In this document: positions 58,717 to 64,000 of the stretch, piece after piece
Numbering within the stretch: the stretch's first letter is position 1
Layout of the letters: each line of letters begins with the position of its first letter
Assembly: GCA_947165675.1 (NCBI GenBank)
Contig: CAMVBJ010000008.1
Span: forward strand, 38,355-102,354
DNA length: 64,000 nucleotides
Direction: 5' to 3'
Origin: an uncultured Prevotellaceae bacterium
GTDB lineage: Bacteria; Bacteroidota; Bacteroidia; Bacteroidales; Muribaculaceae
Program-made: the position numbers and the translations under genes
The notes under the pieces: model-generated
Databases searched by the model: none
Told to the model about the DNA's origin: nothing
Seen by the model: only the letters and a program-made list of their open reading frames with translations

Positions 58717-59012
58717 CAAAAAAGAGTGAATATTTACCAACAAATGATGATTTTCTTACTGAAATAAGCAGATATAGCATATAGCGGGATGTTTTCCATC
58801 CAGCCCGCATCTTGATAAGGATTCATTGATATCCTCAAGCCCTTAAACTCACTAAATGATCATCTACATTAAAAAAATGAATTGACCACTGACAAAATCA
58901 GATTTTACATTTTTTTGGACATTCAAAATAGGTGCTAATAATGACATTTGTTGTGAAGTTAAAACAAAGTATAAATAGTATTAAAAATGCAGGTATTGAT
59001 AAGAATTCATAA

Positions 59013-59020
59013 TATCTTTG
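59013..59020 (+). promoter_or_regulatory. -7 element of the unknown secreted protein
   Basis: TATCTTTG, 29 bases before ATG 59050. It lies inside the longer ORF of the track, which supports the later start. Confidence 0.55.
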
Positions 59021-59049
59021 CGAAAAATCATCATAAAAAGTATTGTATT

Positions 59050-59661
59050 ATGAAAACGATTGTATTACTTCTCACCTCATTGATGCCATTTGCCTTGTTT
59101 TCACAAAGCAAATCCAGTAGCGCAGACATTAAAAGGCCCGTGCCCTCAAATATGGCCATTTCTCCAGAATCTCATGAAAATGTACTTACAGAAAACACGC
59201 TTAACCTGGAGGTACATTTAATCGCCGAGAACAAGAGTAGTAGTGACCAACAATATTCCATCAGAATGTCAGGGCTTCGCTCCAGATCAGACAGAAGGCT
59301 GCTTTTGGTTGAAGCACAGCCCATTTTGCTGACATTAAGTAATGGTAAAGTTTTGGAATTCAATACTGTTGGCGCGGGCATTAAAGAAGTCAACAATTCA
59401 CAGTCAGCATCCCACGGCATTGATGACGACCTCGTCTTCATGGTTTCTCGTGAACAAATCAACGAGATCATACAAGGCAGAATAGTAAATGTACGTTTTG
59501 CGCTCAACGGTACGAAATTGGTCAACTATCAGGTCGAGAATAACCGTTTCTCTGAGGCCTTGAGTGAGCAACTTGAAGTTCTTGACGGCAATGAAAACCC
59601 AATGAGTGGTGACATTGACAGATACCTCGTGCCATTACAGATTGTCACTACCGAAAGGTAA
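59050..59661 (+). CDS. Hypothetical secreted protein
   Basis: A 203-aa exported protein with signal peptide MKTIVLLLTSLMPFALFSQ. The mature part begins with a polar Ser/Lys-rich segment and continues as a beta-rich domain (LNLEVHLIAENKSSSDQQYS, RRLLLVEAQPILLTLSNGKVLEFN). Not recognised. The start at 59050 is chosen because the ORF track's extra 21 codons lie at or before the promoter. It is convergent with the TonB-domain gene and ends just before a 24-bp perfect hairpin. AT-rich codon use links it to the following accessory genes. Confidence 0.75.
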   Translation: MKTIVLLLTSLMPFALFSQSKSSSADIKRPVPSNMAISPESHENVLTENTLNLEVHLIAENKSSSDQQYSIRMSGLRSRSDRRLLLVEAQPILLTLSNGKVLEFNTVGAGIKEVNNSQSASHGIDDDLVFMVSREQINEIIQGRIVNVRFALNGTKLVNYQVENNRFSEALSEQLEVLDGNENPMSGDIDRYLVPLQIVTTER

Positions 59662-59701
59662 CCAACTCAACCCAAATCGCCAGGCCTTGATAACGCAGAA
59701 C

Positions 59702-59757
59702 CACACTTTAGGTCCAAAAAATGTGTAAAAAATCACATTTTTTGGACCTAAAGTGTG
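59702..59757. terminator. 24-bp perfect hairpin, bidirectional terminator
   Basis: CACACTTTAGGTCCAAAAAATGTG (left) pairs perfectly with its complement on the right over 24 bp, with an 8-base A-rich loop. It lies between convergent genes. Its length and the internal A/T tracts make it an unusually strong structure. Confidence 0.75.
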
Positions 59758-59788
59758 ATGCACGACAGATTATCTCTGGTCACCTTAA

Positions 59789-61153
59789 CTACAGTCTAAA
59801 ATTTATCGGGATGGTCATAGTTGAGGCCACTGGCTGACCATTGCGGCGGGCCGGTGTGAAGCGCGGCAGCGACTTGCACAAACGCAACGCCTCTGCATCA
59901 AGCATAGGATCTACAGATTGAACTATTTCTGCATTGCTCACTTGGCCTGTTGAAGATATGGTCAACTTGACAACAACTTTACCTTGAATCTTCTTCTCAG
60001 CCGCTACTGGCGGATAATTAATATGTCTTGCAATATAGCTTGACAGCGCATAATTACCACCCTGAAACTCTGGACCTGCATTTTCCTTGGGAGTTTGTTC
60101 TGCCTGCGGTGCAGCTTGGCGTTCTTCTCTTATAGGAGCTACAGGGGGCGTGCTCGCCTGGTCATTGGCTCGTGTAACAGTCTCTGTTTTGGGCTTAGTT
60201 TCCGATTTAGGATCAGATGATGTCGTAGACTGTGACGGCCTATCCTCATATTCGTCATAATCATAATACCTACTATCATCACTCAAATTATCATCTGAAC
60301 TCATGAATTCATCTGGATCAACACTTTCCTGCTGTTCTTCTTCTACATTATTCTCTTCATTAACCAAGGTGTTATCAACCACATCTGGAGTTGAGATGCT
60401 GTCTGTTGTCACTTGAATCTTATCGGTTCTCTTTGCTGCATCTTTTCCTATTGTAGCAGTACTAAACATGAATATCGTGCCCATCAAAGGTATCATGATA
60501 AGGGATAACGTAGCGTGGTACTTGTAGTTTTGAAATTTCTTCAGATTAAATTTCTGTACTGACATATCTGCTGCCGAAGTCCACCATTTGTAATGTCCAG
60601 AAAAAAGCATTTCATAGTTCTCTATGGCCCAGTTGAAACGCCATTTGACGTAATCTTTGGCATTTGACTTCACCAAACCAAGGATTAAGTAATACAAAAT
60701 GACGCCAACACATGATCCCAAGATTAAAATCCAGTTAAAAGACATTATGCATACGATAAGAAATAGTAGCGGACCCCAATTGACAATAAAATTTGCAACA
60801 TGGCCTATTGCAGTAGCCAGGAACAGGCTACCTTGTTTTACTTTTTCCTTCCGGACTTGTTTCTCACCATCACTTTCATTAAGCGGACTGACGATGGCAC
60901 CTGCAACAAACAAACCAAATAGAAGTGGAACGCCGGTAGCCATCAGCAGCCACTTGAGATCAAATATTTTTGAAAACCCAACATTCATTCCTGCAAATAA
61001 CCCAATGACGAGGAAAGCGATTATGCATAGTGCAAAAGCTATGGCAATACCGATACTCACCTCATAGTTATAGAACAAATCCCACAACCAGAGTTCTTTC
61101 TCTTCATCTCCTTTTGTATAGTTCTTAAGAACTCTTCTAAATATCTTATTCAT
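59789..61153 (-). CDS. Polytopic membrane protein with C-terminal TonB domain
   Basis: A 454-aa protein whose N-terminal 240 residues contain about five or six hydrophobic helices (for example IGIAIAFALCIIAFLVIGLFA and LLMATGVPLLFGLFVAGAIV), then an acidic/Pro/Ser-rich periplasmic linker (about 250-360), then a TonB/energy-transducer domain (about 365-454) with YPPVAAEKKIQGKVVVKLTI and LPRFTPARRNGQPVASTMTIPINF. Normal TonB proteins have a single helix; the multi-helix head is unusual, and no ExbB/ExbD is beside it. Similar TonB ends occur in BlaR1-type and other Bacteroidota membrane proteins. It lies 18 bases after the next gene and shares its operon. The codon use is AT-rich. Confidence 0.82.
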   Translation of the reverse strand: MNKIFRRVLKNYTKGDEEKELWLWDLFYNYEVSIGIAIAFALCIIAFLVIGLFAGMNVGFSKIFDLKWLLMATGVPLLFGLFVAGAIVSPLNESDGEKQVRKEKVKQGSLFLATAIGHVANFIVNWGPLLFLIVCIMSFNWILILGSCVGVILYYLILGLVKSNAKDYVKWRFNWAIENYEMLFSGHYKWWTSAADMSVQKFNLKKFQNYKYHATLSLIMIPLMGTIFMFSTATIGKDAAKRTDKIQVTTDSISTPDVVDNTLVNEENNVEEEQQESVDPDEFMSSDDNLSDDSRYYDYDEYEDRPSQSTTSSDPKSETKPKTETVTRANDQASTPPVAPIREERQAAPQAEQTPKENAGPEFQGGNYALSSYIARHINYPPVAAEKKIQGKVVVKLTISSTGQVSNAEIVQSVDPMLDAEALRLCKSLPRFTPARRNGQPVASTMTIPINFRL

Positions 61154-61171
61154 AATATAGTCTTTTTGTAA

Positions 61172-63121
61172 TTATTTAAACTGTGGTTCTCCGATAAAAG
61201 CCTTGTGGAATTGATGCCATAATTCCCAGTTCTTGCCTGCGGGAGCACTTGGATGGTATACGCGCATAGCCGGAATGCTCTTACCTTTGATCGGGTAATA
61301 CCACACAGGGCATGAATCGCCGTCAACCTCAATTGAGGATTCAGTGCCGTCCCATGCAGGGAGTAGATTATATAGCCTTTGCCCCCAGACAATGATGGCA
61401 TCAGGCTGATAGCTTTCTAGCAATTCTCTAAACGCTTCTTCACTATCTTTTTGAGCTGTCATATCAGGTTCTGTACGTGGGCCAGTTGTGGACTTTTGGA
61501 AGTAGTTGTAAAACATTATACTGTTCCACAACTGTTCGCGCTCCTCTTGATTGAGTTCCCGACCTGCTAATGCGCGTTCGAAACACAAGAAAGTCTGTTG
61601 ATAAGGTGCACCCCAGTACTCATAAACGAATTCTTTGACAACGCCAATAGTTTCATCTGTGGCATCCGTTGCGTCGCCATAATGGCTCTCGCCAAGTACC
61701 AGCACCTTCTTTCCATAAACACCACCTGAATTGTATTCACTTCCAACCCATGGCTTGAAAAAGATTTTAGAATCGCTATTTACTTCTTGTTGAACGGTTT
61801 CCTTCCGTACTGCCTCTTGCTGTACTGGGTCTTGCTGAATAGGTTCTTGCTTTGCAGACTCTAACTGAATCAGTGCTTCTTTTTTAATATCGCTATTTTG
61901 CGGATTTTTGATGAAATAATAGATTAAAGCCCGTAAAACAAGAAGTTCAGCATCAATATCTGTCATGTTATACCCTATTGTGCCGAAAAGCCATTTATGA
62001 TTGTCTCGACATGTGATTTCTAATAATTCCGGTTCATTGCTATCCCATTCACCATACCATGCATTTTTGTTAATATCAATAATGTCTGATAAATTTATGG
62101 TGTAATGTCCACGATCAGCAATAAATTCCAGCGCATCAGCAAAAAGGTAAACTGTAACCTCTTGGCTAGAATCCCTATCAAAATACCTTTTCCCCATGTG
62201 AAAATGAGGAGTTTTCAGAGAAAACGACTTTCTCATATAGCAGGGACGATTAACAATTAAATCATCACAGTCAATTTTTTGTGGTTTCGCTCCTGATTCT
62301 AACCAATACCGTTTAAAGTAATCGGCATAATTATCATACAGAGATTGATTTAATAATTTTGACCCATAATCATAGAAGAAAAAATGTTCCAAAACGTGTT
62401 CCATACGATGTTTAAAAATGAACAACTGATAATAGTAGTTTTCCTCAGTTAATGACACATCATCTTCTCCTACAATTGGAATTTTAATCAAGTTACGCAA
62501 TTCTTGATTAACATCATCAGAAAGATTATCAAGTAGACTTAGTTTTGTGCTTGTATATTCATTAATATTCTCTGGTCTTAACCAAGATTGCAATAATTCA
62601 GCTAGATCCTGGGAGTCTTTTTTCTTAATTTTTCCCAAATAATACTTACTTTTGGGTTCAGCGCGCATATCAAACTCTAAATCATCTCGTTCTTCCTCTG
62701 GGAGAGATTCAAGGATTTTAAGTTTCTCAATGATTGCACTACTTGCTTTATTCTTCTGCTCAGTTCTTTGAACTTTTGTTGCTTTTAGGCGTTGATATGC
62801 TTGTTCTAGAGCTTTGGTAGGATCAGATATCTTTCTCGCAAAGAAACTTTCGGTAACTTCATCAATCAATTCGTCAATGTCTTCACTATCACGTTCTTTT
62901 TCTGGAAGTTTCATATAGAAACGTTCAAGAGCCTTTTGAAAACGGTTTGATTCAGCTTCAGAAACACCACCTATGTCATCATCGTCATCATCAGACGATG
63001 AGTCGACATCATAAGTTTCCTCGTACTCATCACTGTCTTTGAAACGGTAATCATCCTCATATTCACCATCATCGCCGGTGAATATCTTCTTCACAGTTTT
63101 GATAAAATCAGTTAATCCCAT
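61172..63121 (-). CDS. Acidic / PH-like / uracil-DNA-glycosylase-like fusion protein
   Basis: A 649-aa cytoplasmic protein not seen by me as one family. It starts MGLTDFIKTVKKIF (ATG 63121; the ORF track's TTG is four codons earlier). An acidic run (DSSSDDDDDD) lies at about 38-48. A helical charged region follows to about 300, then a PH- or GRAM-like beta domain (about 320-395; VTVYLFADALEFIADRGHYT), a Gln/Glu-rich linker of repeated QQxxVQQE-type units (about 425-450) and a C-terminal domain of about 195 aa resembling UDG-family proteins (KKVLVLGESHYG, NSIMFYNYFQ, PDAIIVWGQRLYNLL, YHPSAPAGKNW). Uracil glycosylase activity is not established. AT-rich codon use suggests horizontal origin. Confidence 0.7.
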   Translation of the reverse strand: MGLTDFIKTVKKIFTGDDGEYEDDYRFKDSDEYEETYDVDSSSDDDDDDIGGVSEAESNRFQKALERFYMKLPEKERDSEDIDELIDEVTESFFARKISDPTKALEQAYQRLKATKVQRTEQKNKASSAIIEKLKILESLPEEERDDLEFDMRAEPKSKYYLGKIKKKDSQDLAELLQSWLRPENINEYTSTKLSLLDNLSDDVNQELRNLIKIPIVGEDDVSLTEENYYYQLFIFKHRMEHVLEHFFFYDYGSKLLNQSLYDNYADYFKRYWLESGAKPQKIDCDDLIVNRPCYMRKSFSLKTPHFHMGKRYFDRDSSQEVTVYLFADALEFIADRGHYTINLSDIIDINKNAWYGEWDSNEPELLEITCRDNHKWLFGTIGYNMTDIDAELLVLRALIYYFIKNPQNSDIKKEALIQLESAKQEPIQQDPVQQEAVRKETVQQEVNSDSKIFFKPWVGSEYNSGGVYGKKVLVLGESHYGDATDATDETIGVVKEFVYEYWGAPYQQTFLCFERALAGRELNQEEREQLWNSIMFYNYFQKSTTGPRTEPDMTAQKDSEEAFRELLESYQPDAIIVWGQRLYNLLPAWDGTESSIEVDGDSCPVWYYPIKGKSIPAMRVYHPSAPAGKNWELWHQFHKAFIGEPQFK

Positions 63122-63162
63122 AATGTTTAGCAATTATATGTTAAAAAATATATTACTGATGG

Positions 63163-63170
63163 CAAAAATA
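63163..63170 (-). promoter_or_regulatory. -7 element of the UDG-like/TonB operon
   Basis: TATTTTTG on the minus strand, 41 bases before ATG 63121. Confidence 0.5.
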
Positions 63171-63551
63171 GATACAGGGTGCGTCAAAATATGACCGAGG
63201 ATATGACTATTTTTGCCGATGTTTTCATCAGATTTCCCGTCAACCATGCAAAAAGGCGGGACTGCTCGTGCCTCGCTTTGTCAGTTGATGGTCCTAGGAA
63301 AACCAGAGTACAAAAACGGTACATCAATGCAGTCCACGCCTATAGCATGGAAGCCGCCGTGCCGCCTTCTCTTGTACTCGTATTGAAAATTTCCTAGGTT
63401 CTCAACCGACAAGAATGGTGCATGTCGCTTCTATTATCTAAAATGTCTTGATTAGAAAACGCCAGTAAGAGTTCTAATCATTTGCAAAATTAGGTGTTAT
63501 TAGTTAGAAAAGCAAGAAAAAGCATTCAATTTAATGTTTATAGGAAAAATG

Positions 63552-63585
63552 CAAGGCGGCGGGACCGTGTGGTCTCGCCGCCTTG
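63552..63585 (-). terminator. Terminator of hppA
   Basis: Stem CAAGGCGGCGgGACC / GGTCtCGCCGCCTTG, 15 pairs with one G-T and a 4-base loop; on the minus strand it is followed by CATTTTTCC. Confidence 0.8.
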
Positions 63586-63638
63586 ACAATTATTGACGGG
63601 GGCTCGCAATTAAGCCCTTGATGGGTCAAATCTGAGGA

Positions 63639-64000
63639 TTACTTCTTGTAGGCGTTGATGACGTTCTCAATGCTATCGTCGATGCGCATCTTGTAGAAGG
63701 AGCGCCATACGAAGAAAATAGCGACGAGGACGAAGATGATGCCAATCCAAGGTGCATACTCGCGGAAGTTCTCGCTGATAGCCATCTCCATAGCCAGCAG
63801 ACCGAACAGGGTGGTGAACTTGATGATGGGGTTCAACGAAACTGAAGAGGTGTCCTTGAAGGGATCACCCACGGTGTCACCAACAACCGATGCGTCGTGC
63901 AGATCGGTGCCCTTGAGGTCGAGGTCAACCTCAACGACCTTCTTGCTGTTATCCCAGCTACCACCGGCGTTGGCCATGAATACAGCCTGGAACAGACCGA
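63639..64000 (-). CDS. hppA: Membrane-bound sodium/proton-pumping pyrophosphatase, C-terminal part (5' partial)
   Basis: The frame is open to the end of the window (reading GLFQAVFMANAGGSWDN at the edge), so the 5' part of the gene lies beyond 64000; the Met in the ORF track is internal. The visible 120 residues carry the conserved ANAGGSWDNSKK and HDASVVGDTVGDPFKDTSSVSLNPIIK blocks of membrane pyrophosphatases, with the acidic and lysine residues of the pyrophosphate site, then three hydrophobic helices. The enzyme couples pyrophosphate hydrolysis to Na+ or H+ export. In Bacteroidota it is usually Na+-pumping and K+-dependent, which the fragment cannot prove. It ends before a hairpin terminator. 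Confidence 0.92.
   Translation of the reverse strand, partial: GLFQAVFMANAGGSWDNSKKVVEVDLDLKGTDLHDASVVGDTVGDPFKDTSSVSLNPIIKFTTLFGLLAMEMAISENFREYAPWIGIIFVLVAIFFVWRSFYKMRIDDSIENVINAYKK

Follow-up and report, generated by a model that had tools for sequence, protein, structure and literature searches.

Members of the uracil-DNA glycosylase (UDG) superfamily have precedents in phage defence in Brig1 (PMC11078745) and Brig3 (PMC13160076), which the passages of the two reports drawn on here describe as base-excising enzymes; the gene for Brig1 forms part of a defence island, and that for Brig3 shares an operon with an ADP-ribosylglycohydrolase-like gene. Multicopy RNAs of Bacteroides are represented by FopS (PMC11697453), a group of paralogous small RNAs (sRNAs) that act in trans. 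Here, we analysed a stretch of 64,000 nt from an uncultured Prevotellaceae bacterium (assembly GCA_947165675.1, contig CAMVBJ010000008.1, positions 38,355 to 102,354; hereafter the window), which carries an inserted cassette of two genes, encoding a predicted UDG-fold protein (gene 1) and a polytopic membrane protein with a TonB domain (gene 2), behind a structured leader RNA.

The cassette shares with Brig1 and Brig3 a UDG-superfamily protein that would act outside housekeeping repair, and ADP_ribosyl_GH genes also occur near the present family; as a difference, the same passages mention no membrane partner or TonB domain for Brig. Gene 1 resembles the UDG superfamily (TDG/MUG, UdgX, and family-4 UDGs) in predicted fold, motif order, and the equivalents of the Asn and His-Pro-Ser motifs, but its family has a GESHY motif I with Ser, Ala, or Gly at the position of the catalytic Asp/Asn. 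Gene 2 matches TonB/HasB transducers in the sequence and fold of its C-terminal domain but is anchored by a head of five transmembrane (TM) segments where those have a single N-terminal helix, and among homologues the domain is exchangeable. Like FopS, the leader RNA is a multicopy RNA of Bacteroidales with a promoter and a Rho-independent terminator; whereas FopS consists of a single-stranded 5′ stretch and a terminator hairpin, the leader RNA forms four covarying helices and is situated 5′ of coding genes.

No paper on the leader RNA or the gene pair was found in the literature searched, within which large catalogues of candidate RNAs (e.g., PMC8040213) were not compared entry by entry. The leader RNA and the glycosylase-like GESHY family are new, and the three items found here, a UDG-fold family with an altered motif, a membrane partner with a sensor-like, swapped envelope domain, and a covarying leader RNA outside Rfam, have not been described together.

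Accessory cassette between housekeeping genes

Both genes are located on the minus strand, at the end of a contig from a rumen-type Bacteroidales genome. As stated in a preliminary description of the window, they are separated by 18 nt, and both open reading frames (ORFs) are intact. Gene 1 (61172-63121, 649 aa) starts with the ATG at 63121 and has an in-frame TTG at 63133; gene 2 (59789-61153, 454 aa) starts with the ATG at 61153. The element had been delimited at 59789-63170, which includes the genes and misses a structured RNA upstream; its true extent is about 59673-63548. This follows from the empty sites in three congeneric genomes (G207, L152; G280, L153; G187, L155), in which the two flanks, namely the pyrophosphatase side from 63545/63551 onward and the side of a 224-aa ORF up to 59667/59672, are only 16-44 nt apart. 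Because the flanks are contiguous in these genomes, the segment of ~3.88 kb represents an accessory insertion with housekeeping genes on either side. Its GC content is 39.4%, compared with 51.6% in the remaining window, where the lowest other 3.9-kb stretch has 46.7%, which bears out the claim that the operon is richer in AT than its surroundings.

59673-63548, minus strand: inserted segment of ~3.88 kb, comprising promoter, leader RNA, both genes, and 3′ hairpin (empty sites in G187, G207, and G280)
61172-63121, minus strand: gene 1, 649 aa, with an acidic tail (residues ~20-50), a helical region (55-210), an uncharacterised region (211-424), a Gln-rich linker, and a UDG fold (450-645), according to an AlphaFold2 model; homologue in L035
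59789-61153, minus strand: gene 2, 454 aa, with a five-TM head (residues ~36-54, 66-88, 116-134, 142-160, and 218-236), an acidic linker, and a TonB_C domain
59702-59757: perfect 24-bp palindromic hairpin with an 8-nt loop, ~31 nt past the stop codon of gene 2 (folding z -6.0)

Upstream, the cassette borders on the terminal part of an H+-pyrophosphatase gene; downstream, the 224-aa ORF is followed by a 2-oxoacid:ferredoxin oxidoreductase-like cluster, named from reading the sequence. Because other genomes of the genus carry yet other content at the same position (L154, L156, and L158), it represents a variable insertion site. Depending on the genome, this site, which is bounded by the H+-pyrophosphatase gene and the oxidoreductase cluster (58755-63640 in the window), is empty, carries the 224-aa ORF, or holds other content. 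The named close relatives are metagenome-assembled genomes labelled Muribaculaceae, Prevotellaceae, or Bacteroidales and are mostly of ruminant origin.

The palindrome at 59702-59757, which has no U-tract, is possibly a bidirectional terminator. G187 (L155, 1907-1968) and G237 (L156, 2231-2289) carry related hairpins close to the corresponding site. Rfam microRNA matches to the hairpin are far below the gathering scores and were attributed to the palindrome.

Structured leader RNA

The minus strand upstream of gene 1 has a folding z-score of -4.3 and contains, 121 nt ahead of the gene, a structured RNA with its own candidate promoter:

63243-63435, minus strand: leader RNA of ~190 nt with a terminator-like hairpin and a U-rich tract at its end (covariance models R1, 177.9 bits, and R2, 162.6 bits)
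63485-63492, minus strand: candidate Bacteroidetes -7 box TAATTTTG (consensus TANNTTTG), ~50 nt upstream of the leader RNA and kept in its copies
63449-63479, minus strand: small 5′ hairpin GATTAGAA...TTCTAATC followed by an ACAT motif, read from the sequence

The structure shows strong covariation. In an alignment of 49 copies built without reference to structure, the 34 pairs of four helices are formed in 96.7% of the cells (86.5% after shuffling), and double changes occur in 234 cells, compared with 90 +/- 12.5 in shuffled alignments and at most 41 when the pairing was slid. The leader RNA has no match above the gathering score in Rfam 15. It was detected by the first covariance model in 80 of the 101 genomes of the genus (1-9 copies) and by the second in 171 of the 198 genomes and 28 of the 30 genera of the family; across the order, it occurs in 58 of 197 genomes, with up to 12 copies. 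Within the family, most genomes carry the RNA, and it extends to dozens of further families in Bacteroidales. Further copies are located at G000:C27:5450-5639, C3:83412-83605, C60:2557-2739, and C46:2180-2360. Many copies in G371, G422, G516, and G531 are situated within a few hundred bases of contig ends, as if beside repeats that break the assembly.

In a typical unit, a TANNTTTG box is followed by a small hairpin and an ACAT motif, then by the main structure, and finally by a stem that resembles a terminator and carries a U-rich tract. The box is present 32-53 nt upstream of 46 of the 50 copies inspected and at 18 nt in one more (6% in shuffled upstream sequences); 5′ hairpins with stems of at least 7 pairs precede 74% of the copies (41% after shuffling), and ACAT accompanies 42. 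A start codon (ATG) follows on the same strand within 125 nt in 39 of these copies, at a median distance of 56 nt, and on the divergent side in 6. Most copies are positioned 20-120 nt ahead of start codons, and the accessory genes concerned are numerous and unrelated. The covarying structure is conserved upstream of genes, with the promoter on one side and the start codon on the other, an arrangement that is, as read from the sequences, the layout of a 5′ leader. The preliminary description had assigned a single promoter to the operon; sigma-70-like matches in the region, the one near 63140-63165 included, are at chance level (15 observed, 15.3 expected), and the box at 63485-63492 is the better candidate.

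The leader RNA is also tied to UDG genes beyond the window. At the 65 loci of the UDG-like family, 13 of 25 sense-strand hits fall in the 650 nt ahead of the UDG gene, a stretch expected to contain ~2% of them (P ~3e-16). Several of these hits are weak (15-25 bits), yet they end 47-61 nt ahead of the gene. Homologues precede UDG genes in G303 and G324 and the whole UDG operon in L039, L040, L084, and L096, with another copy in the same genome as the window; the association extends to other genera.

UDG-fold protein and its membrane partner

The C-terminus of gene 1 adopts a UDG fold in an AlphaFold2 model (m72bf01d0372c) based on a 51-row alignment. Residues 450-645 are modelled with a predicted local distance difference test score (pLDDT) of mostly 96-98, and the remainder mostly scores much lower, with good confidence again for residues 55-140 of the helical region. 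The UDG reading holds because Foldseek returns human TDG (3ufj; E 5.2e-5) as the best match of the model in the PDB, together with UdgX, family-4 UDG, and MUG (8iim, 1ui1, and 1mug; E 5e-5 to 1e-3 overall). The UDG-superfamily-like C-terminus in the preliminary description has in this way withstood the search named there as its possible refutation.

61175-61789, minus strand: UDG-fold domain, residues 445-649 of gene 1 (pLDDT 96-98; Foldseek match to TDG, 5.2e-5; motifs in 50 homologues)
Residues 477-481, 537-542, 576-580, and 623-625 of gene 1: UDG-domain motifs GESHY, FYNYFQ, IIVWG, and HPS
59792-60025, minus strand: TonB C-terminal domain, residues 377-454 of gene 2 (PF03544, TIGR01352, and TonB C-terminal domains in the PDB)

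The domain is recognised by no Pfam, NCBIfam, or PHROG family, and a UDG profile yielded only weak, unrelated matches among PDB chain sequences. Gene 1 as a whole has no convincing match in Pfam, NCBIfam, PHROG, or PADLOC; a Pfam IFN-gamma match to the helical region (E 0.0016, under the cut-off) was dismissed as chance.

Motif I reads G-E-S-H-Y in place of the canonical forms with a catalytic Asp or Asn (GQDPY or G[IM]NPG). The site usually occupied by the catalytic residue, whose equivalence was derived from motif order, is Ser in 42, Ala in 7, and Gly in 1 of the 50 homologues. Next to it, Glu 478 (47/50) and His 480 (46/50) are conserved, and the Asn of the FxN motif and the His-Pro-Ser motif of UDGs are present as well (N539 in 48, H623 in 48, P624 in 50, and S625 in 39 homologues). 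Because the Asp/Asn site is replaced while the adjacent Glu and His and also N539 and H623-P624 are retained, the sequences suggest an altered chemistry of the GESHY family. The motif is directly followed by a Cys in 37 of the 50 homologues, often with further Cys residues behind it; these are absent from the window protein and from the relatives closest to it.

In the remainder of gene 1, the acidic N-terminus and the Gln-rich linker (residues ~424-445) are present as previously described, and a PH/GRAM-like domain in between could not be confirmed: the region has strands (311-381) and a helix (388-405) modelled with a confidence of only ~40-50, and it has no match to Pfam or any other family. 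The N-terminal 430 residues occur in one other genome only, L035, where an intact homologue (649 aa) is 94% identical to the window protein. Because the DNA identity to L035 differs between codons 1-430 (96.8%) and codons 431-649 (81.7%), gene 1 is a mosaic. In the operon of L036, the UDG domain stands alone (203 aa), and the N-terminus of gene 1 is, by sequence comparison, exchangeable.

Gene 2 combines the multi-helix head, acidic linker, and TonB domain noted earlier; positively charged loops are predicted to be cytoplasmic and the acidic linker periplasmic. Its C-terminus is a genuine TonB domain by sequence (PF03544, E 1.8e-21, 76.8 bits at a cut-off of 24.6; TIGR01352, E 7.9e-15) and by its fold, which matches TonB C-terminal domains in the PDB. 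The typical plan of the TonB family, a single N-terminal anchor working with ExbB/ExbD, does not apply: the head has five TM segments, and the operon contains no ExbB/ExbD or receptor gene. Homologous heads retain the cytoplasmic motifs GDEEKE..WD....YE and Y..WRF.WA and carry various tails: TonB_C in the window and L036, a divergent TonB_C-like domain in L035, a short tail in L037 and L038, and, named by eye, an SH3-like and a beta domain in L049 and, in L039 and L040, a beta domain that also occurs in a lipoprotein encoded nearby. The periplasmic tail of gene 2 is, as far as these alignments can tell, exchangeable.

Proposed function and rival explanations

We tentatively regard an RNA-gated accessory cassette for an envelope-triggered attack on foreign or modified DNA, that is, phage defence, as the most likely purpose of the locus. 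The cassette is arranged like a single transcription unit, in which a Bacteroidetes promoter is followed by the leader RNA, which has a terminator of its own, and then by the two genes. The leader would gate transcription by attenuation, such that read-through requires disruption of the terminator by a signal, a protein, or another RNA. The UDG-fold protein may be a cytosolic enzyme that acts with altered chemistry on nucleic acids or nucleotides, and the five-helix protein would anchor or control it via the conserved cytoplasmic loops. The exchangeable periplasmic tail, here a TonB domain, would read the state of the envelope, for example of TonB-dependent outer-membrane receptors; a coupling to the outer membrane, as proposed in the preliminary description, could apply only where the TonB tail is present and does not extend to members in which it is replaced. 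It is also conceivable, with similar reserve, that the leader RNA constitutes a new, order-wide, multicopy class of cis-regulators that silence accessory genes, among them UDG-like modules and genes for BspA-like and other exported proteins, until a shared signal arrives, and that the UDG-membrane pair is an envelope-sensing effector of this regulon.

A functional link between the two proteins is suggested by their co-occurrence. Among the 101 genomes of the genus, a strong UDG-like gene is present in 11 and the head in 8; both occur together in 7, the head alone in 1, and the UDG gene alone in 4 (Fisher P 1.5e-7, relatedness uncorrected). The two genes adjoin each other in six loci (window, L035, L036, L037, L038, and L049). 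Side-by-side conservation of the pair elsewhere is confined to the genus and concerns the UDG domain and the five-helix head; it does not include the TonB tail or the N-terminal part of gene 1.

Alternatively, the UDG-like and membrane proteins may share a transcript and act separately, as members of a mobile collection of orphan genes that have a leader in common. This explanation is possible, if doubtful. Copies of the leader precede a very mixed set of genes, which encode BspA-type LRR proteins (LRR_5), dockerin, Big_2, and SPFH domains, small exported proteins, and UDG-like proteins, and the neighbours of UDG-like genes outside the genus are mostly others. Such hitch-hiking would not readily account for the presence of a UDG gene in 7 of the 8 genomes with a head or for the adjacency that persists in six loci through swaps of both the gene 1 N-terminus and the gene 2 tail.

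The leader RNA itself might be unconnected with the genes that it adjoins, either as an sRNA acting independently in trans or as a mobile repeat that carries a promoter. Its own promoter and terminator and its multiple copies are features also of the FopS family; nevertheless, this is unlikely, because the short distance between most copies and a same-strand start codon often leaves no room for a second promoter, and because FopS, a single-stranded stretch with a terminator hairpin, is stated to be in Rfam, whereas the leader RNA matches no family there. A recently spread repeat resembling miniature inverted-repeat transposable elements (MITEs) is disfavoured, since copies are divergent even within one genome while compensatory changes preserve the pairs. 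It is very improbable that gene 1 is a variant DNA-repair glycosylase and gene 2 the energy transducer of a TonB-dependent transporter, as their UDG fold and genuine TonB_C domain might suggest, given the replaced catalytic Asp/Asn of motif I, the accessory traits of the cassette (a patchy distribution in 12 of the 101 genomes of the genus and an insertion between core genes), the absence of ExbB/ExbD or receptor genes from the operon, and the swapping of TonB tails for other domains.

The neighbourhood of the stand-alone UDG-like family bears on an RNA-gated defence cassette. The 65 named loci are mostly from Bacteroidales, with some from Treponema, other Spirochaetes, and Methylobacterium. 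Relatives with ~30% identity occur in 93 plasmid records, chiefly of enterobacterial conjugative plasmids, and in the single IncN plasmid inspected, the gene adjoins a DNA methyltransferase and a DEAD/DEAH helicase. Among genes at most 2 positions from a UDG gene (n=115), WYL domains are more frequent than among genes at least 5 positions away (n=115), with 8 versus 1 cases (P 0.035), as are DEDDh exonucleases (4 versus at most 1); ADP_ribosyl_GH is represented by two near neighbours. The neighbourhood is defence-like, if modestly so. By analogy with the Brig proteins, a phage-defence role of the cassette is possible; the earlier suggestion of such a role gains from the WYL regulators and loses from the housekeeping neighbours in the window. 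Viral contigs contained no relatives of the family in searches with the single protein and the UDG profile, phage records contained none, and a search of viral structures returned generic UDG and DNA-polymerase matches only.

Several observations weigh against an RNA-gated cassette with a defence function. The cassette in the window has no defence genes among its neighbours, the WYL enrichment is modest, and neither protein matches a PADLOC model at E<=1. The head is several genes or a few kilobases from the UDG gene in L039 and L040; most UDG-like genes outside the genus lack the head, which has no convincing match there. TonB_C domains near UDG genes, identified with Pfam, number 4 versus 0 of 115, which is not significant alone (P 0.12); a general tie between TonB_C and UDG genes is at most suggestive, as the profile that pointed to it had been built from the neighbours themselves. 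No covariance-model hit precedes the same operon in L035 and L036, so the leader RNA is not obligatory for it. Pairings that compete with the terminator form in 93-96% of the cells, and their covariation does not exceed that of shuffled alignments because the strands involved hardly vary. It is plausible that the leader RNA acts as a switch. If so, its signal and regulon could be tested in cultivable gut bacteria, and the control of many orphan accessory genes would be explained; if the proteins act on phage DNA, UDG-type defence would be widened beyond soluble glycosylases.

Inspection of individual loci, largely by eye, yielded additional associations. The single genome with a lone head (G306, L134) carries it near an AAA ATPase, a PLD-type nuclease, and a second UDG-like protein. 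The latter belongs to a distinct UDG-like subfamily found with PLD-type nucleases in L134 (6508-8659), L046, and L083; the orphan head adjoins it in G306. In L040 (13552-14307), a pair resembling nucleotidyltransferase/HEPN toxin-antitoxin systems is located on the opposite strand, between the genes of the UDG operon and the head. In at least two lineages, the immediate neighbour of the UDG-like gene is an ATP-grasp gene that is graspetide-ligase-like (L052, L055, L057, and G303/G324, with L132 551-1543 and L133 5066-6058). A two-TM protein with the motif LLRGQT..E..RN...F is encoded directly upstream of the UDG-like gene in L039 (8615-9928), L040, L068, and L085, and two genes upstream of it in L091.

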